Shown piece by piece: positions 13,328 to 58,991 of a stretch of 64,000 bases of DNA; position 1 is the first letter of the stretch; each line of letters opens with the position of its first letter. The DNA comes from Bifidobacterium asteroides (GTDB taxonomy: Bacteria > Actinomycetota > Actinomycetes > Actinomycetales > Bifidobacteriaceae). Made by a program: the position numbers and the translations under genes. The notes beneath the pieces were generated by a model that was not told the origin of the DNA, made no database searches, and worked only from the letters and a program-made list of their open reading frames with translations. The stretch covers positions 1,674,001 to 1,738,000 of the forward strand of contig NZ_CP048272.1 in the NCBI RefSeq assembly GCF_019469425.1, given 5' to 3'.

Positions 13328-13401
<74 letters not shown>

Positions 13402-13407
13402 CAATTT

Positions 13408-13440
13408 ATTCCGGTCCTCATGGGTGGGGCCGGTATTTCT
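13408..13440 (+). terminator. Terminator-like hairpin after tRNA-Pro
   Basis: CCGGTCC (13411-13417) pairs with GGGCCGG (one G-T pair) around an 8-base loop, then TATTTCT. Confidence 0.6.
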
Positions 13441-13679
13441 GCGTTCGTAACTTTTATATCCGGGTGTATGCACGAATATAAGCTTTGCCTATTTCTTCCT
13501 CTTTTTCAAGAAACAAAAGCGACTCTCTTTTTTGCACTTTTTATAAGTTCGTGATCACGACCCCAACAATCCTGAAAAAATCTACCGCATCAGTATTTAG
13601 CTTCATCGACGCATAAAAAAAACCAATCATCAGCATCCAGATGTAGTATATAAACAAATATTCTGTTCAAAGGAGCATA
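13441..13679. other. AT-rich leader of the ATPase/TOPRIM pair
   Basis: About 240 AT-rich bases, in clear contrast to the surrounding GC-rich genes. No coding frame stands out. A TATATA-type -10 element lies near 13647-13655 and AAAGGAG lies just before the ATG at 13680. I found no copy of the tRNA-Pro 3' end that would mark an attachment-site duplication. Confidence 0.5.
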
Positions 13680-14888
13680 ATGCGGATCTTAGCCTTTGAC
13701 CTCAAAGGACTTCGCCTATACGACAAGGGCACACTACGCATGATCCTGTTCGCTGAGGATAGGATTACCAACGGCAGCTTCACCTATCGCCTTCAAGGCA
13801 CCACCTCACCGCTTGGCATCGTCACAGCCATTGGCATCTCCGGCATCAATGCCTCCGGCAAAACCACTGATCTACGCCTGCTTTCTCTAATCATCAACAT
13901 TGCCAGAGGCACTTCTTTGGGAACTCAACGCTTTACCATCGATCCGCTGATGGACATTCTTGAGCCCACGATTACAGCACGCATTATCTTCGAGGAAAGC
14001 GGCGAAGCTTGGCTGCTCGATGCCACCCTCCGGCGCGCAGACCAAAACGAGACCACCGCCGACTCCCCCTTGGTTTTCGAAAGGGAACGGCTGTGCCACT
14101 ATACGGGCAAGAGCCTGAGCAAGATTCGTTTGAAAAGAACAATTGATGGTAACGAGGAATCTTGGCTGACTGTAGCGACTCGAGGAGTGAATAAGTCCGG
14201 CGACGAAAAGGAGTTGGCTGATGATGTCAAGAGATTTTTACCCCCCGACCGCTCTCTGACGACCGGAATTCTGCGCACCAAGAAGACCATGGTCACCATC
14301 TGTCTGCAAAATCCGCCGCAAATGTCGATTCCTGTCACTCCCCCACCGCAAGTGGTACGTCTATTCGATCCGACCATCGAACACTTGGAAGTAAGCGATC
14401 ACCAGTTCCATATCAAGTTCCGCAATGAAAAGGTTGAGCGTGACTGTGATCCCTCTCAAGCTATGGCCATGATATCGGCGGGAACATTCCGTGGAACCTC
14501 CTTAGCGCAACATGCTATCGAAACACTTGCGCAAGGAGGCTACCTACTATTCGACGAAATCGAAAACAGCATAAACAAGCAGTTGGTCTTCGCCATCATC
14601 GACTTGTTCTCCTCTCCTGCTACTAACCCAAATGGGGCGGTGCTCGTTTTTTCTACGCACTATCCTGAGTTGCTGGATCATTTCACCAGAAAGGACAACA
14701 TTTGGTTCGCGGTCAGGCATGATAACACCGGATTCCAACTGGTCCGATACAACGAGTTGGTGACCCGAGGTGAGCTCAAGAAGAGCGTTCAGTTCATGTC
14801 AGGGGCCCTGCAAGGAACAGCACCTTCTGCTGCTTCCATCCGCGCCTTGCGAAGCTACGTCAGGGAAAAGGTAAGAGTTCATGGATAA
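13680..14888 (+). CDS. AAA15/RloA-like ATPase of a two-gene system
   Basis: 402 residues. Walker A is SGINASGKTT (about 54-63), Walker B YLLFDEIENS (about 288-297, with D292 and E293) and the switch His is in VFSTHYPELLD (H327). The order Walker A near residue 60, a long insert, then ISAGT...GGYLLFDEIENS...NPNGAVLVFSTH...NIWF is that of the AAA15 (COG1106) ATPases, which include RloA and the PARIS protein AriA. It overlaps the next gene by 8 bases, so the two are translationally coupled. Low GC and position behind tRNA-Pro suggest horizontal gain. The family call is an inference from motif order; the function (defence) is not proven. Confidence 0.75.
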   Translation: MRILAFDLKGLRLYDKGTLRMILFAEDRITNGSFTYRLQGTTSPLGIVTAIGISGINASGKTTDLRLLSLIINIARGTSLGTQRFTIDPLMDILEPTITARIIFEESGEAWLLDATLRRADQNETTADSPLVFERERLCHYTGKSLSKIRLKRTIDGNEESWLTVATRGVNKSGDEKELADDVKRFLPPDRSLTTGILRTKKTMVTICLQNPPQMSIPVTPPPQVVRLFDPTIEHLEVSDHQFHIKFRNEKVERDCDPSQAMAMISAGTFRGTSLAQHAIETLAQGGYLLFDEIENSINKQLVFAIIDLFSSPATNPNGAVLVFSTHYPELLDHFTRKDNIWFAVRHDNTGFQLVRYNELVTRGELKKSVQFMSGALQGTAPSAASIRALRSYVREKVRVHG

Positions 14889-15462
14889 TCAAGCGATATT
14901 CAAGGAACCTACATTGGTTGTCTGCGAAGGAGCCGCCGAAAGTGTCATCTTTGAACTCCTACTGGCAAGAGGGAAACTGATCATACCTGCAGATTCCCTT
15001 ATTGAAGATCCACAGACTGGCCGGCTTTACACTCGCTGCCGTAAAAATAGGGAGATTGAGGAACGGTTCCTTTCCGTTACCTATGATTCTCCATGTGTAA
15101 ATATCATCCGTATTATTGACTCTGCAAATGAACGCTTTCAATTGTCGCCTCTGTACCAGTCTAAAGCCCGTGTATTCACGCTGACTACCCGTCCGGAGAT
15201 TGAGATTTTGGCAATCATCAAAGAGGGCGCTTATAGGGATTGGGCACATGTCAATAACATGAAACCCAGTGAATTCTGCAAGGAGCGGCTGGGACTGCAC
15301 AAGATCAAGCAGTACGCTTTCTTACGCCAATATTGGAATGATGCAGACGAACTCTGTCATGTCATTGACCAGTACCGAAGTTACCATCACTTCCAAAACC
15401 GTGAGCGATGTTTGGCAGAAATACTCATTGCTCATTCGAGCAGAGGCACCGATCAGGTGTGA
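14881..15462 (+). CDS. Putative TOPRIM-like (RloB-type) partner protein
   Basis: 193 residues, no membrane segment. The opening TLVVCEGAAESVIFELLL resembles the TOPRIM glutamate motif (E16). IIRIIDSANERF (D80) would be the Asp motif, although the second Asp expected in DxD is missing or shifted. TLTTRPEIEILAI resembles the NPcFElWLL segment of RloB proteins. RloB proteins are about 200 residues and sit directly downstream of an RloA ATPase, exactly this layout. The role would be a nuclease or nucleotide-acting effector controlled by the ATPase. The family link rests on short motifs and the gene pair; it could be a new TOPRIM subfamily or an unrelated fold. Confidence 0.55.
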   Translation: MDNQAIFKEPTLVVCEGAAESVIFELLLARGKLIIPADSLIEDPQTGRLYTRCRKNREIEERFLSVTYDSPCVNIIRIIDSANERFQLSPLYQSKARVFTLTTRPEIEILAIIKEGAYRDWAHVNNMKPSEFCKERLGLHKIKQYAFLRQYWNDADELCHVIDQYRSYHHFQNRERCLAEILIAHSSRGTDQV

Positions 15463-15501
15463 CCTAGACGACGTAACCGACCGAGGTTCACCAAAGACCA
15501 T

Positions 15502-15513
15502 CAGTCTAGACTG
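15502..15513. promoter_or_regulatory. Perfect 12-bp palindrome upstream of the TPR-DUF4037 gene
   Basis: CAGTCTAGACTG, a perfect dyad, lies 78 bases before the start codon. It could be a regulator binding site; no regulator gene adjoins it. Confidence 0.35.
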
Positions 15514-15590
15514 GTAGGTAGAAGCAACTAGGGCGCTGGGGCTCCATGAGGAATCCGCACCTTCAGATACCCTGACAGTAAGGGAGCCAA

Positions 15591-17609
15591 ATGAGCCAGG
15601 ACCAGACACCGATCACAGGCAGCAAGCAGAAAGAGCCCCAACCGTCCTACATGCAACCGGACGGCAGCTTCGACACCCAGGCCTTCCTGGACGGACTGGA
15701 TGTCATCTTCAACGCCGGCAAGGCCCGCGATCAGGCCGGACCCTACCTGCAGCAGGCGCTGGTGGATGCGGAGAATGCGGGCGATGACACCGGACTGCTG
15801 ACCGTGCTGAACGAAACCATGGGCTTCTACCGGTCCCAGGGTCGCCACCAGGAGAACATGTGGATAATCCAGCGCACCATCGAGCTGGCCACACGCATGC
15901 GCATCGAAGGGTCCGAGGCCTGGACGACCACCCTGATCAATGCAGCCACAGGTCTGCGGGCAGCCAAGAAGTACGACCAAGCTGAAGACCTCTACCGGCA
16001 GGCGCTTGCCTCCGCAGCCAAAACTCTTGGGCCCAGGGACCGACGGCTGGCCGCCCTGCACAACAACCTGTCCATGCTCTACAGCGAAACCAAGCGGCCC
16101 GACAAGGCCGAGCAGGAGCTGCGCCGGGCCATGGGCATCCTGGAGAATTCCAGTACTGATCCTTCCCGGGATCTGGATCTGGCCTCCACCCACACCAATC
16201 TTGCCCTCCTGCTCATGCAGAGCAAGGACAATCCGCAGGCTCTGCAAGAGGCTTGGAACCAGGCCCGCACCGCCCTTAGCATCTATCGAACCGGCCACCT
16301 GGAGAACAGCGCACACTATGCCTCGGCCCTGGCAGGCTTCGCCCAGGTCTGCTACATGACCGGTCGTTTCAGCCAGTCGGCAGACACCTACCGCAAGGCC
16401 CTAGCCATCATTGAGGACCGGTACGGCAAGGGCAGCGATTACTACCAGGTCACAAAGGCCAATCTGGACCAGGCCCAGTACGCAGCCGAAGAGGCCGGGG
16501 ACAAAGATCTATCCGATCAGACTGGCGAAGCAGCATCCAGCCAGCCGAAGACCAGGTACCAGAACGATGACAACGATCGGCATGACTCCCGCCCGGATAT
16601 TCAAGGGCTGGATCTGGCCAAGGCCTACTGGGAGCAGGTGGGTCGCCCCATGCTGGAGGAACGCTACCCTCAATATCGCGGCAGGATTGCCGTGGGCTTG
16701 ATGGGCCATGGCTCGGACTGCTATGGGTTTGACGATGCCATCTCCCGAGACCATGATTTCGGCCCGGGCTTCTGTCTGTGGCTGACCAGCGAGGATTACC
16801 AGGCCATTGGCGACCAGCTGCAGAAGGACTATGAGACCCTGCCCGCTGAGTTCATGGGGTTCGGTGCGCGGACCGACAGCGTCAGAGCAAAAGGAAGCAA
16901 CCGGCGCGTAGGCGTCTTCGAGATCGGCGCCTTCTTCGAATCCCTGACCGGCTACCGGCAGGCGCCCCCGGAAGATCACTCCCACGAGTGGCTGCTCCTG
17001 GACGAGGCGACGCTGGCGGCGGCCACCAACGGCAGGATTTTCGCAGATCCTCTAGGACAGATGCTGGCCACCCGGCAGGGGTTCAAGGCGATGCCCGACG
17101 ATGTGCGATTCTGCCTAATCTCCCGTCGGCTGGGCATGATCGCCCAGGCAGGCCAGTACAACCTGCCGCGGAGTCTGCAACGGGGCGACGGGGCTGCAGC
17201 CATGCTGTCAATCAACGAATTCGTGCAGGCCTGTGCCTCCCTGATCTTCCTGATCAACAATCCGTTGACAGTCGGGTATCTGCCCTACTACAAGTGGACC
17301 TTCGCGGCCCTGCGGCGACTGAGCGGACGAATGGCCACCAGGCTGTCCGATCTGACCGAGCAACTGGAAGACATCCTGCGCCTGGCTTCGGCTGCCTGCT
17401 ACGGGGGGCAAGGCTTTGGCGAAGGCGGCAAGGGATCCCGACCGGCCGCCGAACGCGTCACCAAACTTGTAGAGTCCATCTGCGCAAGAATCGTAGAAGA
17501 GTTGCAAGCCGAAGGCTTGACCAACAGCCCGGAAACCTTCCTGGAATGGCAGCGCCCCTATGTCGAAGCCCACATCTCTAGCGAGGATCCGATTCTGCAC
17601 AGCATCTGA
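15591..17609 (+). CDS. TPR protein with C-terminal DUF4037 nucleotidyltransferase-like domain
   Basis: 672 residues in two halves. Residues about 40-310 are TPR repeats of the kinesin-light-chain/NPHP3 kind, such as YDQAEDLYRQALA, KAEQELRRAMGIL and FSQSADTYRKALAIIE. After an acidic hydrophilic linker, residues about 340-665 form a DUF4037 domain that opens with a nucleotidyltransferase-like motif: a Gly-Ser step (MGHGSDCYGFDD) and then RDHDFGPGFCLWL, giving the D-x-D pair. That part of the fold suggests transfer of a nucleotide or binding of one. The ATG at 15591 follows AGGGAGCC. The DUF4125 gene starts 12 bases downstream. The biological role is unknown to me. Confidence 0.8.
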   Translation: MSQDQTPITGSKQKEPQPSYMQPDGSFDTQAFLDGLDVIFNAGKARDQAGPYLQQALVDAENAGDDTGLLTVLNETMGFYRSQGRHQENMWIIQRTIELATRMRIEGSEAWTTTLINAATGLRAAKKYDQAEDLYRQALASAAKTLGPRDRRLAALHNNLSMLYSETKRPDKAEQELRRAMGILENSSTDPSRDLDLASTHTNLALLLMQSKDNPQALQEAWNQARTALSIYRTGHLENSAHYASALAGFAQVCYMTGRFSQSADTYRKALAIIEDRYGKGSDYYQVTKANLDQAQYAAEEAGDKDLSDQTGEAASSQPKTRYQNDDNDRHDSRPDIQGLDLAKAYWEQVGRPMLEERYPQYRGRIAVGLMGHGSDCYGFDDAISRDHDFGPGFCLWLTSEDYQAIGDQLQKDYETLPAEFMGFGARTDSVRAKGSNRRVGVFEIGAFFESLTGYRQAPPEDHSHEWLLLDEATLAAATNGRIFADPLGQMLATRQGFKAMPDDVRFCLISRRLGMIAQAGQYNLPRSLQRGDGAAAMLSINEFVQACASLIFLINNPLTVGYLPYYKWTFAALRRLSGRMATRLSDLTEQLEDILRLASAACYGGQGFGEGGKGSRPAAERVTKLVESICARIVEELQAEGLTNSPETFLEWQRPYVEAHISSEDPILHSI

Positions 17610-51848: not shown

Positions 51849-54269
51849 TCAATCTGCTGACAGAACCAGACGCCCGTTCCAGGAAGGCTTCCACTCGCCC
51901 ACCCCCAGGCAGCCAGTGAATTCCCGCCCGTCCGAGGAAGTGATAGTTACTGCACTTCCCGAGCGTTCCGCCTGAAAAACAAGGCTGCTTCCATCTTCCT
52001 CGCTTACCGTCGCAGTGGCTCTTCCGTCGTGAGCAAGGAAAACTGAGACCTGGGAATCGGTTCCATATGCATATTCGGTCGATTCCTGTCCCTGGCGAGT
52101 GACCAAAACAGTGCCATCACGCACCCAGAGCGGAACCGTGTCGAAGCCATGCTTTTCATGCATCCACTGGCCGGACTGTCGGCAGTCCACCTGGCGGCCG
52201 GTGAACCAATCCGTCCATACCCCCTGGGGCAGGTAGTATTCCACATCACCCGTGTACGAGAAGACCGGCGCCACCAAAAGCGATGGCCCCAGCATATACT
52301 GTCGGTCGCAATCCAGCGCCGTCCTGTCGTCAGGGAACTCCATGAACATGGAACGCATGACCGGGACGCCGTGCTCGTGTGCACCAAGTCCGACCTGGTA
52401 CAGGTACGGCATCATGGATATCTTCAACCTGGTGAACTTTCTCAGCACGTTCACTGCGGTCTGCTCAGGGGGATTGACTACTCCCCTGCGCTCATCCTCC
52501 TCATCGAAGAGCCAAGGGACTCTGTAGACGGTAGAGCCGTGCAGCCTGGAGTGAGAGGAGAGCAGGCCGAAAGCTATCCACCGTTTATAAACAGCAGGGT
52601 CAGGCCTCGCTCCTTCAAAACCGCCGATATCGTGGCTCCAGAAACCAAAACCGGAACTTGCCAGCGACAGGCCAGCCCGCAAAGTCTGTGCCATGCCATT
52701 GAAGGTGGACTCACAGTCACCACCCCAATGAACGGGTTGCTGTTGGCCTCCCACCGTGGCAGATCGGGCATACAGGCAGGCCTGCCCCTTTCCGTACACC
52801 TCTTCGATGGCCTGGAAGACGGTCTGATTATATAGTTGCGTATACCAGTTATGCATGCTGGCAGGATCCGAACCATCAGACCAGACCACATCAGCAGGAA
52901 TGCGTTCACCGAAATCAGTCTTGATGGCATCTACGCCTTGCTTGAGCAGATGCTTGACTTTCTCTTTGAACCACTTGCAGGCGTCTGGATTGGTGAAATC
53001 CACCAACCCCATGCCGGCTTGCCAAAGATCGGTCTGCCATATGTCCCCGTTGGGCTTGCGAACCAGGTAGCCCTTGTCTGCGGCCTGATCAAAGAGGGCG
53101 CTTTCCTGCCCGATGTATGGATTGATCCAGACACAAACATGCAGCCCCTTCTCGCGATGGAGACGTCCCAGTGTCCCCTCTATATCAGGGAAGAAGCGTC
53201 GATCCCATTGGAGGTCGGTCCAGTGGAATTCCCTCATCCAATAGCAGTCGTAGTGAAATACGCTCAGGGGAATATGCCGCTGAGCCATGCCGTCAATCAT
53301 GGATGTGACGGTCTTCTCGTCATATTTTGTGGTGAAGGATGTGGTCAGCCAGAGTCCATATGACCAGGCAGGGACCATGGCCGGACAACCCACCAAGGCC
53401 GTGTATCGTTCCAGGATTCGTTCGGGATTCGGCCCAGCAATCAGATAGAAGTCCAGAGCCTCGCCGGGCACGCTAAACTGCACGGTCTCCGTGTTCTCCG
53501 TGGCCACTTCGAAGGAGACATGTCCGCGGTTGTTGACCAGAACACCATAACCTTTGCTGGTCATGTAGAAGGGAATGTCCTTGTAGCCTTGTCCGCTGGC
53601 TGTGCCCCCATCTTCATTCCAGATGTCTATACTCTGCCCGTTCTTCAGATATGGGCCAAACCTTTCGCCAAAGCCGTAGACTCTTTCCCCGACCGACAGT
53701 CCAAGCTGAATGGCAGTGAAAACCGGAGATTCATCATAGGCCCTGGCCGTGGGCGCTACGCCGAACTCCCCCGCCGGTTGCGTACTTACGGCAGCGTCGG
53801 GAGCCAAAGCGAACCTTGCCAGAGACTTGCCCCTGGCATGGGTGAGCTCCTTGCCCTCACATGCAAAAGCCATATCGAAGACAGGTCCCTTGGTCATGGT
53901 CAGACTCAGATTGCTTGAAGCCAGAGTCACCGAAGCCCCATCTTCTCCGACCTCCCCGTCGCCAGCGCCTTGGGCACTAGCCTTCACGAATCCGGAACTC
54001 GAATCCTGTTCGTGAACAGGGAAGCCCGGACAGGTCCTGGTCCCCTTCCAATGGGTTGCCTGCACTCGGATAATTCCTTCAGCAGGCGAAGTGGCATGGA
54101 TTCTGAAGGTCGGCAGGTTCAAAGTGTCGGCCCGGCCGGCCACAACCCTCGTCGCAGCCAGGACATCGATGCTCCTCCCATCTGGCCTCACCGATAATTC
54201 ATAGGGAGAACGTGCGTAGAGAGCCTCGACGCCTGGCCGAGTCAGCCAATATCCATCGGTGAACTTCAT
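51849..54269 (-). CDS. GH31 alpha-xylosidase (YicI type)
   Basis: 806 residues. The YicI-style catalytic motif KTDFGERIPAD supplies nucleophile Asp452, and HWGGDCES supplies acid/base Asp518. FHYDCYWMREFHWTDLQWD matches the substrate-binding loop that in YicI-like enzymes prefers xylose at the non-reducing end. N-terminal beta-sandwich and (beta/alpha)8 barrel are of normal length. No signal peptide, so it is cytoplasmic and works on imported oligosaccharides such as isoprimeverose from xyloglucan. The start is one base after the permease stop. The substrate is inferred from the subfamily signature. Confidence 0.85.
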   Translation of the reverse strand: MKFTDGYWLTRPGVEALYARSPYELSVRPDGRSIDVLAATRVVAGRADTLNLPTFRIHATSPAEGIIRVQATHWKGTRTCPGFPVHEQDSSSGFVKASAQGAGDGEVGEDGASVTLASSNLSLTMTKGPVFDMAFACEGKELTHARGKSLARFALAPDAAVSTQPAGEFGVAPTARAYDESPVFTAIQLGLSVGERVYGFGERFGPYLKNGQSIDIWNEDGGTASGQGYKDIPFYMTSKGYGVLVNNRGHVSFEVATENTETVQFSVPGEALDFYLIAGPNPERILERYTALVGCPAMVPAWSYGLWLTTSFTTKYDEKTVTSMIDGMAQRHIPLSVFHYDCYWMREFHWTDLQWDRRFFPDIEGTLGRLHREKGLHVCVWINPYIGQESALFDQAADKGYLVRKPNGDIWQTDLWQAGMGLVDFTNPDACKWFKEKVKHLLKQGVDAIKTDFGERIPADVVWSDGSDPASMHNWYTQLYNQTVFQAIEEVYGKGQACLYARSATVGGQQQPVHWGGDCESTFNGMAQTLRAGLSLASSGFGFWSHDIGGFEGARPDPAVYKRWIAFGLLSSHSRLHGSTVYRVPWLFDEEDERRGVVNPPEQTAVNVLRKFTRLKISMMPYLYQVGLGAHEHGVPVMRSMFMEFPDDRTALDCDRQYMLGPSLLVAPVFSYTGDVEYYLPQGVWTDWFTGRQVDCRQSGQWMHEKHGFDTVPLWVRDGTVLVTRQGQESTEYAYGTDSQVSVFLAHDGRATATVSEEDGSSLVFQAERSGSAVTITSSDGREFTGCLGVGEWKPSWNGRLVLSAD

Positions 54270-54270
54270 G

Positions 54271-55128
54271 CTATTTCACAGCTCCTGTAGTAATGCCCTT
54301 GGAAAGGGTTCTTTGGAAGATCAGATAGAAGATCAGCGTCGGTACGATGCTGATCAGCGAGGCCGCAGCGGTGGTGGTCACATCCATCAGCCTGTCTCCA
54401 GTCAACGACGCGATGGCGATGGGCACCGTCTGCTTGGAATTATCGATTAGGAAGGCCATGGGAATCATGTACTCATTCCAGGTCCAGATGAAGAAGAAGA
54501 CCAGCATGACATTCAACGTGGGTTTGGAGATGGGGAAGACGATGTCTTTGAGAATTCTCCACCGACTGGCCCCATCTATGGCAGCAGCTTCCAGAATGGC
54601 CTTGGGGAAGGTTCCGTAGACGCTGGACAGAAGATAGGTGCCGAACGCGCTCTGGATGACCGTAAATATGATTACGATCGACCATTGCGAGTTGTACAGG
54701 CCCATGGCCTTGAACATGATATAGAGCGGATAGAGCAGGGCTTCCTGCGGCATCATATTGGCCAACATAATCAGCAGGACGATCCAGCGCCTGCCCTTGA
54801 CGCGGCCGATGCCCAGGGCGAAGGAGTTCAGTACCGACAGTCCAACAGCCAGGAATGCCACCAGCGTGCAAATCCACATGCTGTTCCAAACTTTCTGTGG
54901 GAATCGGACTCTGGTCCAGAATTTCACTAGTCCGACAGCGCTGAATTCGTGCGGCCAGGAAAGAGGACCTGAGGCATTGTAGTCCGCCGTGGTTTTGAAG
55001 GCGTTCAGCAGAAGAACAAAAAACGGAAAGAGCATGATCAGTCCGCCGACAATCAGGAAGGCCAGGATTACCCAATCTCCTGTCGTCCGATTGTTCCGTG
55101 CTTTGGGAATCTTGCTTACAGCTGTCAT
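54271..55128 (-). CDS. Sugar ABC transporter permease (MalG type)
   Basis: 285 residues, about six membrane segments. The EAA loop is EAAAIDGASRWRILKDIVFPISKPTLNVM. It is the MalG-type partner of the permease upstream, with a four-base gap between them. It ends one base before the alpha-xylosidase. Confidence 0.93.
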   Translation of the reverse strand: MTAVSKIPKARNNRTTGDWVILAFLIVGGLIMLFPFFVLLLNAFKTTADYNASGPLSWPHEFSAVGLVKFWTRVRFPQKVWNSMWICTLVAFLAVGLSVLNSFALGIGRVKGRRWIVLLIMLANMMPQEALLYPLYIMFKAMGLYNSQWSIVIIFTVIQSAFGTYLLSSVYGTFPKAILEAAAIDGASRWRILKDIVFPISKPTLNVMLVFFFIWTWNEYMIPMAFLIDNSKQTVPIAIASLTGDRLMDVTTTAAASLISIVPTLIFYLIFQRTLSKGITTGAVK

Positions 55129-55132
55129 GGTG

Positions 55133-56101
55133 CTACTCCTCGTCCTCTTGCTCGACCCGTTGCTGGACGTTGGTGAAAACGACAGAGATCACGATGATGA
55201 CGATGGTCAGAGCCGTGGATATGGCCGCGCCATAGCCGACCTGTTGAGATTGGAAGAACTGTGTGTACGAATAGTAAGAAGGTACGATAGTGCTGTCGCC
55301 AGGCCCTCCCTTGGTCAGCATGTACACCGGAGCAAAGACCTTCAAGGCCGCAATGGTGCAAGTCAGAGCCACCACAAAGATTTCCGGCTTGATGGCTGGC
55401 AGGGTGATGACTCTGAACCGCTGCCACCAATTTGCCCCGTCCAAACTCGCCGCCTCGTAAAGCTCAGGATCGACACGCTGCAGTCCGGACATGAATATGA
55501 CCAGGGGATAACCCAGCTGAATCCAAATCATGATGATCATCAGGAATACCAAGGCGGTATCGGGCGAGCCCAGCCAGTTGTGCTGAAAACGTCCCAGCCC
55601 TAGTCCTTTGAGTATGGCATTCAGCGCGCCGTTCTCGGGGCGGAATATCCAACCCATGACCAGAGCCGCCACCGAGATGGGCAGGAGCTGAGGGAAGTAG
55701 TAAACTGCGCGCATGGTTGAAGCTGTCTTGGCTCCGAACCGTTTTTGGACCACATCGAAGACCAGGGAGGCCAAGACCAGACCGATCAGGATGGGGATGA
55801 CGACCATGGCCACGATCATCCATATGGAGTTGCGGAAGGAGGCCCAGAACGTGGCATCCTTGACCAGCCGCGACCAGTTGTCAATGCCGGCCCACCGTGG
55901 AGGCCGTATCCCCCGGTAGTTGGTGAAGCTCAGATAGATGTTCCAGATTGCCGGCACGATGATGATCCATAAAAGAACCAGTAACCCCGGTATCAGATAC
56001 CACCAGAACCGATTGGAGGGATTGCCTGGTATCCTGGACATCCCTCGTTCCTGATCGGTCTTGGCAGCGATCGGTGCAGGATTTGCACTTCGAGACCCCA
56101 T
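55133..56101 (-). CDS. Sugar ABC transporter permease (MalF type)
   Basis: 322 residues. A hydrophilic N-terminus leads into six membrane segments. The EAA loop is YEAASLDGANWWQRFRVITLPAIKP. It pairs with the MalG-type permease. The ATPase is not encoded here; such importers usually share a common MsmK-like ATPase made elsewhere. Confidence 0.93.
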   Translation of the reverse strand: MGSRSANPAPIAAKTDQERGMSRIPGNPSNRFWWYLIPGLLVLLWIIIVPAIWNIYLSFTNYRGIRPPRWAGIDNWSRLVKDATFWASFRNSIWMIVAMVVIPILIGLVLASLVFDVVQKRFGAKTASTMRAVYYFPQLLPISVAALVMGWIFRPENGALNAILKGLGLGRFQHNWLGSPDTALVFLMIIMIWIQLGYPLVIFMSGLQRVDPELYEAASLDGANWWQRFRVITLPAIKPEIFVVALTCTIAALKVFAPVYMLTKGGPGDSTIVPSYYSYTQFFQSQQVGYGAAISTALTIVIIVISVVFTNVQQRVEQEDEE

Positions 56102-56140
56102 TGTTCGTTTCTCCTCAGCCTGAAAATATGTCTATCAGGG

Positions 56141-56205
56141 TCCGCTGCAGATAGCAGCGGAGCGGAGGCCGACGGCTGCCTGATCAAGTGCGCAACCGTC
56201 GGCCT
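56141..56205 (-). promoter_or_regulatory. Two hairpins between binding protein and permease genes
   Basis: TCCGCTGC/GCAGCGGA (56141-56161) and AGGCCGACGG/CCGTCGGCCT (56166-56205), both perfect. Neither is followed by a long T-run. They probably stabilise the binding-protein message or lower permease expression. Confidence 0.65.
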
Positions 56206-56214
56206 ATGGTTTGA

Positions 56215-57531
56215 CTACTTCCTGAGACCCGATGTCTCGACGCCTTTGTCATACTTGCCCTGAAGCTCAGTAAGCACAGCCTTGGTGTCCTTGGTCCCGT
56301 TGACCAATTCCTGCAGGCCTGCATTGAGCTCGTCATAGAAGGTCGAGGTCGGCCAATCCGGATAGTAGCCCAGACGATCATCCTTGATGACCTGGTTGAA
56401 ACCGGCGATCAGCTCCTTGCTCTTAGGGTCGCTTATCTGGGCAGGATCAGCAGCAATGGGCAATCCGCCGGAGTTTCCCATCAGGTTCTGATTTTCTTTG
56501 CTCAACGTCATGTCAATGAACTTCGCAGCAGCGTCCTTTTTCTTGGAACGCTCGGGAATCACCCAGATGTTGCCGGACCCGCCAGGGATCTTCTTGGTTT
56601 CAGGGAAGAGACCGACCTCCCAATTGACGTTGGGAATGTCGCTTTGGAAACGGCCGAACCACCAAGAGCCCGAGAACAGCATGGGGTAGGTCCCCTTCAT
56701 GAAGTTCTGTCCGGCATCCTCAGCTTTCAGGCCCGTCGAGTCTTTGCTGATGTATCCCTTGTCCACCCAGTCCTTAATGGTTTCAGTGGCATAGGTCATG
56801 GCAGGGCCTTGCCAGTCCACCTTGCCGTCGTAGCGCTGATAGGCGTTGATTAACCGCTGATCGGCTTTTTGAAGGACCAACTGCCACCAGAGATGTTGGA
56901 GCGGGTATTCAGCCACACCCTCGGACAGGGCCGTGACACCGTTGTCCCTGAACTTTTGCATGGCCTGTTCCAATTCAGGCATAGTCTTTGGTATGGCTAT
57001 GCCGTACTTGTCGAACATGTCCTTGTTGTAGTACATCATCACCTCTTCGCCATAGGTGGTGATGCCATACCAGTCGCCCGATCCCATGACGCCCTTTTCG
57101 TCGTATCGGCCCGGGACAGCCAAAGATCCAGTGATCTTCTTGTTCCAGTGGTATTTCTTGACATAGTCGTTAAGGTTGGATAGCAAACCCTGGCTTGAGA
57201 GCAAACCTGCAGTAGCATTGCCCTTGTTGTATTCCATTACATCCGGGGCGTCATCAGAGTTGAGGATCTGGCTGGCGTTTTGCCTGATTTGCTCGAAGGT
57301 CTTCTTCTCGAAGTTGACCTTGATACCGGTCTTCTTCTGAAAATCAGCAATGGCCTGCTTCCAGGCCTTGCCCTGGGCGCCGTTATCCTCCTCGTAGTAC
57401 CAGATCTTGATGGAATCGGGATGCTCCTCTTGGGCGCTGTCGCTGCCGCCGCATCCGGATAAGGCCATGATGCCCGCCAGACTTGCCACAGCCGTAACAG
57501 CTGCCATGATTTTCCGGGGAAACTTCATCAC
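56215..57531 (-). CDS. Sugar ABC transporter substrate-binding lipoprotein
   Basis: 438 residues. Signal peptide with lipobox MALSGCGGSD; family 1 extracellular solute-binding domain (IKVNFEKKTFEQIRQNASQIL, KGTYPMLFSGSWWFGRFQ). GGAGTG lies upstream of the ATG. First gene of the alpha-xylosidase operon. Confidence 0.93.
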   Translation of the reverse strand: MMKFPRKIMAAVTAVASLAGIMALSGCGGSDSAQEEHPDSIKIWYYEEDNGAQGKAWKQAIADFQKKTGIKVNFEKKTFEQIRQNASQILNSDDAPDVMEYNKGNATAGLLSSQGLLSNLNDYVKKYHWNKKITGSLAVPGRYDEKGVMGSGDWYGITTYGEEVMMYYNKDMFDKYGIAIPKTMPELEQAMQKFRDNGVTALSEGVAEYPLQHLWWQLVLQKADQRLINAYQRYDGKVDWQGPAMTYATETIKDWVDKGYISKDSTGLKAEDAGQNFMKGTYPMLFSGSWWFGRFQSDIPNVNWEVGLFPETKKIPGGSGNIWVIPERSKKKDAAAKFIDMTLSKENQNLMGNSGGLPIAADPAQISDPKSKELIAGFNQVIKDDRLGYYPDWPTSTFYDELNAGLQELVNGTKDTKAVLTELQGKYDKGVETSGLRK

Positions 57532-57599
57532 TCCTCTTTTCCTAGCTTCATCGCTTGACTGTCTCTTTACTGGACAACCATTCTTAATTTAATGATTTG

Positions 57600-57618
57600 A
57601 CTATACTTGGCATAGTAT
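57600..57618 (-). promoter_or_regulatory. Candidate LacI operator over the sugar operon promoter
   Basis: ACTATACTTGGCATAGTAT is an imperfect dyad: ATACT and AGTAT arms, and nested ACTAT and ATAGT arms. On the minus strand it includes TATAGT, a possible -10 element. It lies 69 bases before the binding-protein ATG. It is AT-rich and unlike classical LacI sites with a central CG. Confidence 0.45.
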
Positions 57619-57706
57619 TTCGACGTTTTTCGATAACCTATGGCGCTGGATGACAGCTGGTATCAGCCTTGTGCGACAGTGCACGAAGAATCACAGCTTG
57701 CAGTTC

Positions 57707-58735
57707 TCAGCTATGCAGCCGGACCGGGCCAACAGATCCCCTGCGCTTATAGTCGGAATGAATCAGCTCCACTGTCCCCGGCTTTTCCCCCACGCCTTCC
57801 AAACACTCCATCAGCATGTCCACCCCGCGAGAGCATGTTTCATGTGGCCTCATGGGAATCTCATCAAGAGGACGTTCAAGAACAGAGGCATTGCCAAAAG
57901 TGCTTAACGCCAGCATGGAAATATCCTTTGGAATCGAAAGGCCCTGTTTTGAAAGAGCAACGATGATGTTGTTCATGTGACTGATGCTGGTCTGGGCCAT
58001 GATTGCCGTGATCTCGGGATCCAGCTGAAAAGCCCGGCCAATCAATTGACCGACATGCCTGGCATCGTCACCGATGGAGCATAGAAAAGTCATCTTCATA
58101 CCCAGCACCCGGGCCCTGTCTATGGCAGCCTTTTTGGTCCGAACCAGAAAGTTGGATCCTTTCTCATAGGACTGACTGTTGGCCCCCACCATGAGCAGAT
58201 GTCGATGGCCCATCCGATAAAGCTCATCGACAGCGCGTCGGCCCATGGCATGAAAATCAACGTCAACGGAAATCAGATTGGCTGGATTCCTGGCATAGCC
58301 GATAGAGACATAGGGCACTAGGGAGGTATGAGCCTGGGCTACACGCGGATCCTCCATGGTCACATCCAACAGAAGAACGCCATCGATCATTCCGCTGTAT
58401 GACATTCGCAGGAGTTCGTCCGTGTCATCTTCATCCATTAAAAGCACCACGTTGTAGTGGTAGTGTCTAGCCCTGGCGACCACGGCAAAGAAAAAGGTAG
58501 CATAGTTCGAATAGTCGGTATAAGGATGCATGGGCGAGCTCAACGCGATCAGATGTGTTCTGCGCTCCCTTCGGAGCATGGCGGCTCCTGATCCTGGATG
58601 ATAATCCAATTGCTGGGCTGCCTTGAGAACCCTGATCTTTGTCGCATCGCTTACAGGTCGCTTGCCCGAGAATACATAGGAAACAGTACTTATGGAAATT
58701 CCCGCCAAAGCGGCAACATCCTTGATACCGGCCAA
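57707..58735 (-). CDS. LacI-family regulator of the alpha-xylosidase operon
   Basis: 342 residues. The HTH (about 1-55) is MAGIKDVAALAGISISTVSY...RPVSDATKIRVLKAAQQLDYHPG. A periplasmic-binding-protein-like effector domain follows, with AIMAQTSISHMNNIIVAL. It starts with TTG behind AAAGGAGG. It is upstream of the ABC genes on the same strand. The likely effector is a xylose-containing sugar. Confidence 0.9.
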   Translation of the reverse strand: MAGIKDVAALAGISISTVSYVFSGKRPVSDATKIRVLKAAQQLDYHPGSGAAMLRRERRTHLIALSSPMHPYTDYSNYATFFFAVVARARHYHYNVVLLMDEDDTDELLRMSYSGMIDGVLLLDVTMEDPRVAQAHTSLVPYVSIGYARNPANLISVDVDFHAMGRRAVDELYRMGHRHLLMVGANSQSYEKGSNFLVRTKKAAIDRARVLGMKMTFLCSIGDDARHVGQLIGRAFQLDPEITAIMAQTSISHMNNIIVALSKQGLSIPKDISMLALSTFGNASVLERPLDEIPMRPHETCSRGVDMLMECLEGVGEKPGTVELIHSDYKRRGSVGPVRLHS

Positions 58736-58860: not shown

Positions 58861-58867
58861 AATGGGG

Positions 58868-58953
58868 CGGTTGAGGCGAGATTCGAACTCGCGGAGGGAG
58901 TTGCCCTCACACGCTTTCGAGGCGTGCTCCTTAGACCGCTCGGACACTCAACC
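58868..58953 (-). tRNA. tRNA-Ser (anticodon CGA)
   Basis: 86 bases, class II fold with a long variable arm. The acceptor is GGTTGAG/CTCAACC and the anticodon stem CACGC/GCGTG with loop CTCGAAA, giving CGA (reads UCG). CCA is not encoded. It stands alone between the LacI gene and truA. Confidence 0.96.
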
Positions 58954-58991
58954 ATGGTCGTTGCCCGACACTGCCGAACAACAACTTTTCT

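Follow-up and report, generated by a model that had tools for sequence, protein, structure and literature searches.

The 64,000 nucleotides analysed here (positions 1,674,001 to 1,738,000 of contig NZ_CP048272.1 of Bifidobacterium asteroides; hereafter the window) contain, shortly after a tRNA-Pro gene, two overlapping genes for an ATPase and a Toprim-like partner. We consider it fairly likely that the two act as a single anti-phage module of the RloAB/AbiL kind, in which an ATPase sensor would be coupled to a Toprim-fold nuclease with a modified metal site and growth would be arrested on infection. Most likely the pair works like RloAB/AbiL, yet by the models available for the partner it is not a member of that group, and we class it as a new variant. 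The window genome is a single contig of 2.23 Mb; genomes of the same genus include B. apousia, B. mizhiense, B. polysaccharolyticum, B. asteroides and B. choladohabitans, which make up the asteroides group of bee guts. The features of the locus are as follows.

13680..14888, + strand: ATPase gene, 402 amino acids, ABC/AAA15-type, AbiLi/RloA-like
14881..15462, + strand: partner gene, 193 amino acids, Toprim-like family without previous description, structure model with a predicted local distance difference test (pLDDT) score of 89.4
14881..14888, + strand: gene overlap, 8 bases
13328..13402, + strand: tRNA-Pro (CGG), left border of the variable site, outside the module
13403..13679, no strand: AT-rich leader, GC (guanine plus cytosine) content 0.379, 5' of the ATPase gene
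15591..17609, + strand: tetratricopeptide repeat (TPR)-like gene, right border of the variable site, outside the module, named by reading, with no family scan

An earlier reading made from the letters alone (the sequence-only reading) had described two overlapping genes of these lengths, with this overlap, in an AT-rich stretch after tRNA-Pro. The open reading frames are confirmed, and so is the low GC (0.484 for 13403-15462 vs 0.598 for the whole window). Both genes are under purifying selection: ratios of nonsynonymous to synonymous substitution rates (dN/dS), taken between the window gene and close orthologues, were 0.12-0.15 for the ATPase gene (5 comparisons) and 0.14-0.18 for the partner gene (4 comparisons), and on this basis we rejected chance reading frames. 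The leader (13403-13679) contains no sigma-70-like match on the + strand. A terminator-like hairpin follows the tRNA at 13411-13433; it is the 1 hairpin of the scanned region, vs 1.9 in shuffled sequences.

The ATPase is the part of the pair that can be placed among named families. In 28 aligned sequences, that of the window included, G60 K61 T62, S266 G268 T269, D292 E293 and H327 are invariant; we take these to be the Walker A motif, the S-x-G-T signature, the Walker B motif and the switch His, respectively. Three of them, Walker A, Walker B with its DE and the switch His, had already been seen in the window protein. This alignment and that of the partner (28 rows each) comprise the window and 27 of 30 named loci, leaving aside L034, whose partner is broken, L044, where the partner is truncated close to the end of its contig, and the broken orphan at L061. 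The predicted structure has a Rad50/PtuA-type fold. Among PADLOC models the best match of the window ATPase is AbiLi (8.6e-31), with AriA at 3.3e-11, and the AbiLi model PDLC02335 is matched by 28/28 family ATPases (E <= 1e-5). The family profile also matches a profile of six canonical RloA sequences (1.7e-29). The window ATPase was not among the matches of a second AbiLi model, PDLC02336, which is uninformative here as it matched 13/14 control genomes.

The partner, by contrast with the ATPase, is recognised by no model. Pfam, PADLOC and NCBIfam contain nothing that the window protein matches at E values up to 1. When 28 members were scanned singly, no consistent PADLOC or Pfam family emerged, only scattered weak single matches (including SIR2 at 0.001, GajA at 0.0066 and OLD-like_TOPRIM at 0.12), and there was no match in PHROGs (E up to 0.001) or NCBIfam (E up to 0.01). 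In particular, RloB PF13707 and the AbiLii model PDLC02337 were matched by 0/28 members at E <= 1. The canonical RloB of the same genome, used as a positive control, matched PF13707 at 9e-36 and PDLC02337 at 5.1e-25; since PDLC02337 recognises this protein as well as two plasmid RloB proteins, the failure of the partner to match AbiLii is a real difference and not a gap in the library. No AriB or DUF4435 match was found for the 28 members among whatever AriB models Pfam and PADLOC include; AriB is of the DUF4435 type. A search of PDB sequences with the partner profile returned one row (E 0.66), judged irrelevant, and literature listings, whose coverage mostly omits subscription papers, showed no recognised description of the family. 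As a separate observation, the control RloB is part of a canonical RloA/RloB pair elsewhere in the window genome, around G000:C1:2119212-2120236 (L015, L085), whose RloA matches AbiLi at 5.3e-82; that genome is the only one of 27 in the genus with a PF13707 match.

The tentative placement of the partner among Toprim proteins comes from its model and its conserved residues. The model is confident and resembles the Toprim region of OLD nucleases, with a likeness below the level that proves a fold; the structure check proposed in the sequence-only reading thus came out Toprim-like, though not decisively. Among 47 distinct sequences spanning the whole motif region, E16-G17, D80, T103, P105, E106, I107 and E108 are invariant (47/47) and E20 is kept in 46/47; K143 is also listed among the key residues. 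E16 follows the first strand (residues 11-15 in the model), as the invariant Glu of Toprim domains does. The DxD of Toprim and RloB proteins is incomplete: its first Asp is present throughout (D80) and the second, at +2, in 2/47 sequences, leaving 45/47 without it. The N-terminal E motif, the Asp motif and the PEIE segment noticed in the window protein recur throughout the family, and its lack of a clear DxD does so in nearly all members. The sequence link to OLD is weak (E 0.0044) and was obtained with an OLD alignment built from 10 of the 29 loci fetched (starts were located in 12 by a simple motif rule, and L206 and L207 of these were dropped by eye as off target). We infer the residue equivalences to OLD from order and spacing, rather than from superposition.

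The two genes also travel together. The partner family is present in 10/27 genus genomes in 12 cases, with the order ATPase then partner in 12/12 and one partner broken. Among the named loci, several of which come from the same genomes, the ATPase lies directly upstream of the partner at 29/30; the exception is L061, an orphan partner found in two frames. A start codon that would give an overlap is possible in 38/41 rows. On viral contigs the ATPase is present in 7/8, the eighth starting at a contig end, and contig L194 carries terminase and portal genes beside the pair. The protein distances of ATPase and partner correlate (r 0.905, 28 pairs). In a phylum sample that includes the window's own genome 4/396 genomes match, and among relatives 15/149, one of them weakly (6.5e-4). 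The named loci span bifidobacterial, Coriobacteriaceae/Atopobiaceae-type, clostridial, selenomonad, lactobacillar and spirochaete genomes. Plasmid copies occur on pMP7017 of B. breve, one B. longum plasmid and one L. salivarius plasmid, and searches with two further members returned the same three records only. Phage records gave no match for the two family members queried.

At four other Bifidobacterium loci, and not in the window, the pair directly follows HsdR-HsdM-HsdS genes of type I restriction: L035 of B. primatium, L036 of B. simiiventris, L044 of B. catulorum and L055 of B. stellenboschense. These calls were made with Pfam for L035, a locus that holds only the later part of HsdR, and with tblastn for the other three. 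A PADLOC scan covering 68 of 169 listed neighbour proteins found 153 families, type I restriction parts foremost; each has at most 2 members, and therefore the pair is not generally inside dense defence islands.

Some observations concern other versions and states of the pair. A second version, with an ATPase about 38% identical to that of the window, comes immediately after an apparent metal P-type ATPase gene in several genomes of the genus (L007, L008, L011, L012; also L009/L013), and G018 and G020 hold both versions. Besides the orphan at L061, a broken partner is found in G022 (L006/L021/L026), where it is split over two frames and the ATPase remains open.

Abortive-infection defence is probably the role of the pair, and a plausible scenario is as follows. 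The ATPase would dimerise on ATP, sense infection, and hold or arm the partner, a putative Toprim-fold nuclease whose modified metal site (E16, E20, D80, E106/E108 and K143) would work without the second DxD Asp. On infection the ATPase would release or activate the partner, which would then act as a nuclease; its substrate would probably be cellular RNA, for example tRNA, with DNA as the alternative, and growth or translation would halt before phages are made. We infer the defence role, the sensing by the ATPase, and the nuclease activity and substrate of the partner; sensing and activation are proposed because of the analogy with PARIS, in which, according to PMC12409363, AriA senses and AriB, a Toprim two-metal ribonuclease, cuts tRNA. 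There is further precedent: PMC3985639 reports toxicity in E. coli for the AbiLii of F. nucleatum, and PMC10440598 reports Toprim/OLD toxins neutralised by ATPases. Two results in PMC3985639 weigh against our scenario, namely that AbiLi and AbiLii of L. lactis were non-toxic there and that the F. nucleatum ATPase failed to neutralise its AbiLii.

The same precedents could be taken to mean that the pair serves chiefly as a toxin-antitoxin or addiction module, stabilising islands and plasmids, with any phage defence as a by-product. A toxic AbiLii and ATPase-neutralised toxins would suit such a module, as would the three plasmids and the variable site in which the pair is found. We regard this as unlikely: the position behind type I restriction genes at the four named loci fits defence better, the L. 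lactis and F. nucleatum results count against an antitoxin also, and the ATPase is, from general knowledge, large for a simple antitoxin. Slightly less probable still, in our estimation, is that the partner, though Toprim-like, has no catalytic role and is a regulator or adaptor through which the ATPase, then the effector, docks to its target. The missing second Asp could be so explained, and the invariant T-x-P-E-I-E block could serve as a docking surface; the other acidic residues (E16, E20, D80, E106 and E108), however, are conserved as expected of a metal site. In addition, one missing ligand need not abolish activity, because single changes of metal ligands in Bp OLD had no discernible effect on cleavage (PMC6755086). 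A housekeeping role finds a parallel in the archaeal OLD-family ATPase Cran1, which is reported to act in cell-cycle progression (PMC12796447), and would agree with the purifying selection on the pair. We think this very improbable, as the presence in 10/27 genus genomes and 4/396 sampled phylum genomes, the different locations, and the copies on plasmids and on contigs of viral collections show that the pair is not a core gene.

Returning to a defence module of the RloAB/AbiL kind, the comparison with named systems explains why we call it a variant. What it shares with RloA/RloB and AbiL is (i) two adjacent genes, ATPase first; (ii) the match of the window ATPase to AbiLi PDLC02335 and to the RloA profile; and (iii) a [S/T]-x3-[F/I]-E block at equal spacing, T103...I107-E108 in the partner and S116...F120-E121 in RloB. 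Linkage to type I restriction may be a further likeness: RloB has been noted in type I restriction operons (PMC10440598), and such linkage is seen here in relatives of the window pair. It differs in that no partner matches the RloB or AbiLii models, and that D91 and D93 are invariant in 7 canonical RloB rows (alignment A5, in which L188 is annotated without its N-terminus) whereas the partner family is without the second Asp. The ATPases of the two kinds, too, are split by a single long branch that has 100/100 support (28 rows of this family vs 6 of RloA). The proposal that the pair is a divergent ATPase-Toprim relative of RloA/RloB, and could be a new subtype, is thus supported. RloA/RloB and PARIS had been named together as relatives; of these AbiL/RloAB is the closest named relative and PARIS is not. 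PARIS has a split ATPase and Toprim effector as well, but the window ATPase is closer to AbiLi than to AriA and no AriB-type match of the partner family was seen in Pfam or PADLOC, so we rejected PARIS as a family name; AriB was not among the 50 entries shown by the fold comparison, which excludes nothing. OLD nucleases (classes 1-3) and GajA of Gabija are single polypeptides, unlike the two genes here, their sequence link to the partner is weak, and the second DxD Asp is again the difference. In Septu and retron PtuA-PtuB systems, PtuB is an HNH protein (PMC10440598 and PMC12409363), whereas the partner here is Toprim-like.

We would go further only tentatively, giving somewhat less than even weight to the following proposal: that the partner founds a new Toprim-derived effector family with a rebuilt metal site, in which the invariant P-E-I-E block takes over the function of the second DxD Asp; that it is a distinct nuclease, perhaps a tRNA-cutting RNase; and that it co-evolved with its own AbiLi-like ATPase clade, while type I restriction operons, plasmids and prophages of bifidobacteria, other Actinomycetota, Bacillota and spirochaetes captured it repeatedly. 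Annotation tools seek both parts of two-gene ATPase-Toprim systems; here one model recognises the ATPase and none the partner, so that loci of this sort would be scored as orphan AbiLi or missed. The family is well suited to asking whether a Toprim effector requires the complete DxD and what ATPases linked to type I restriction are watching for, and it adds a likely phage-defence gene to asteroides-group bifidobacteria.

The tRNA-Pro site is variable and integration-prone, as seen from its differing contents, integrases and tRNA-end repeats across genus genomes, and the pair is only one of the things it may contain. Of the genus genomes, 27/27 have the tRNA-Pro region and 26/27 the TPR-like gene of the right border; site intervals were fetched for 20 loci from 19 genomes (G002, G006, G017 and G021 excluded; G026 and parts of G001 and G012 not described). 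Only 6/27 genomes have the pair there, namely the window genome (G000), G004, G018, G020, G007 and G022, so that the presence/absence comparison suggested earlier did not find it in all relatives. In G007 and G022 (L180, L181) the pair is separated from tRNA-Pro by other DNA, about 2.8 and 2.5 kb long, in which no long genes stand out clearly. G008 and G009 have some 0.4 and 0.6 kb in place of the pair, and in both the likeness to the window picks up again no more than 8 bases from the partner stop codon; about 0.2-0.3 kb occupies the site in G013, G014 and G016. Elsewhere the contents are a sugar kinase, LacI regulator and phosphotransferase system permease (G010, with similar reading frames in G011, G019 and G003), an alcohol dehydrogenase (G025), or a major facilitator superfamily transporter (G015, with similar reading frames in G023 and G024).

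The sequence-only reading had seen no integrase and no duplicated tRNA end. This is true of the window, where no integrase was noticed next to the pair and neither strand holds a second copy of the last 26 tRNA bases (up to 4 mismatches), and we rejected a mobile element with its own integrase there on these grounds. It does not extend to two sister genomes, which have an integrase at the site and a repeat of the tRNA end: in G003 (L167/L168) a phage-type integrase adjoins the tRNA, and 26 bases of another contig match the tRNA end; in G005 (L179) there is an integrase, and 21 bases of the tRNA end recur at a distance of 8.4 kb. Members of the genus thus seem to have this tRNA-Pro gene as an attachment site. 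Low GC is a weak argument for recent arrival of the pair, given that short sites without it are also AT-rich (0.477 in G008, 0.505 in G009) and five orthologues are at the same place; these five copies may reflect descent within one clade, accompanied by loss or replacement.

One further region of the window, 51849-58735, has a lower GC content (0.51-0.57) and adjoins tRNA-Ser (58865-58954). By reading, it encodes a glycosidase, a sugar ABC transporter and a LacI-type regulator, and it is perhaps an acquired sugar-use island.
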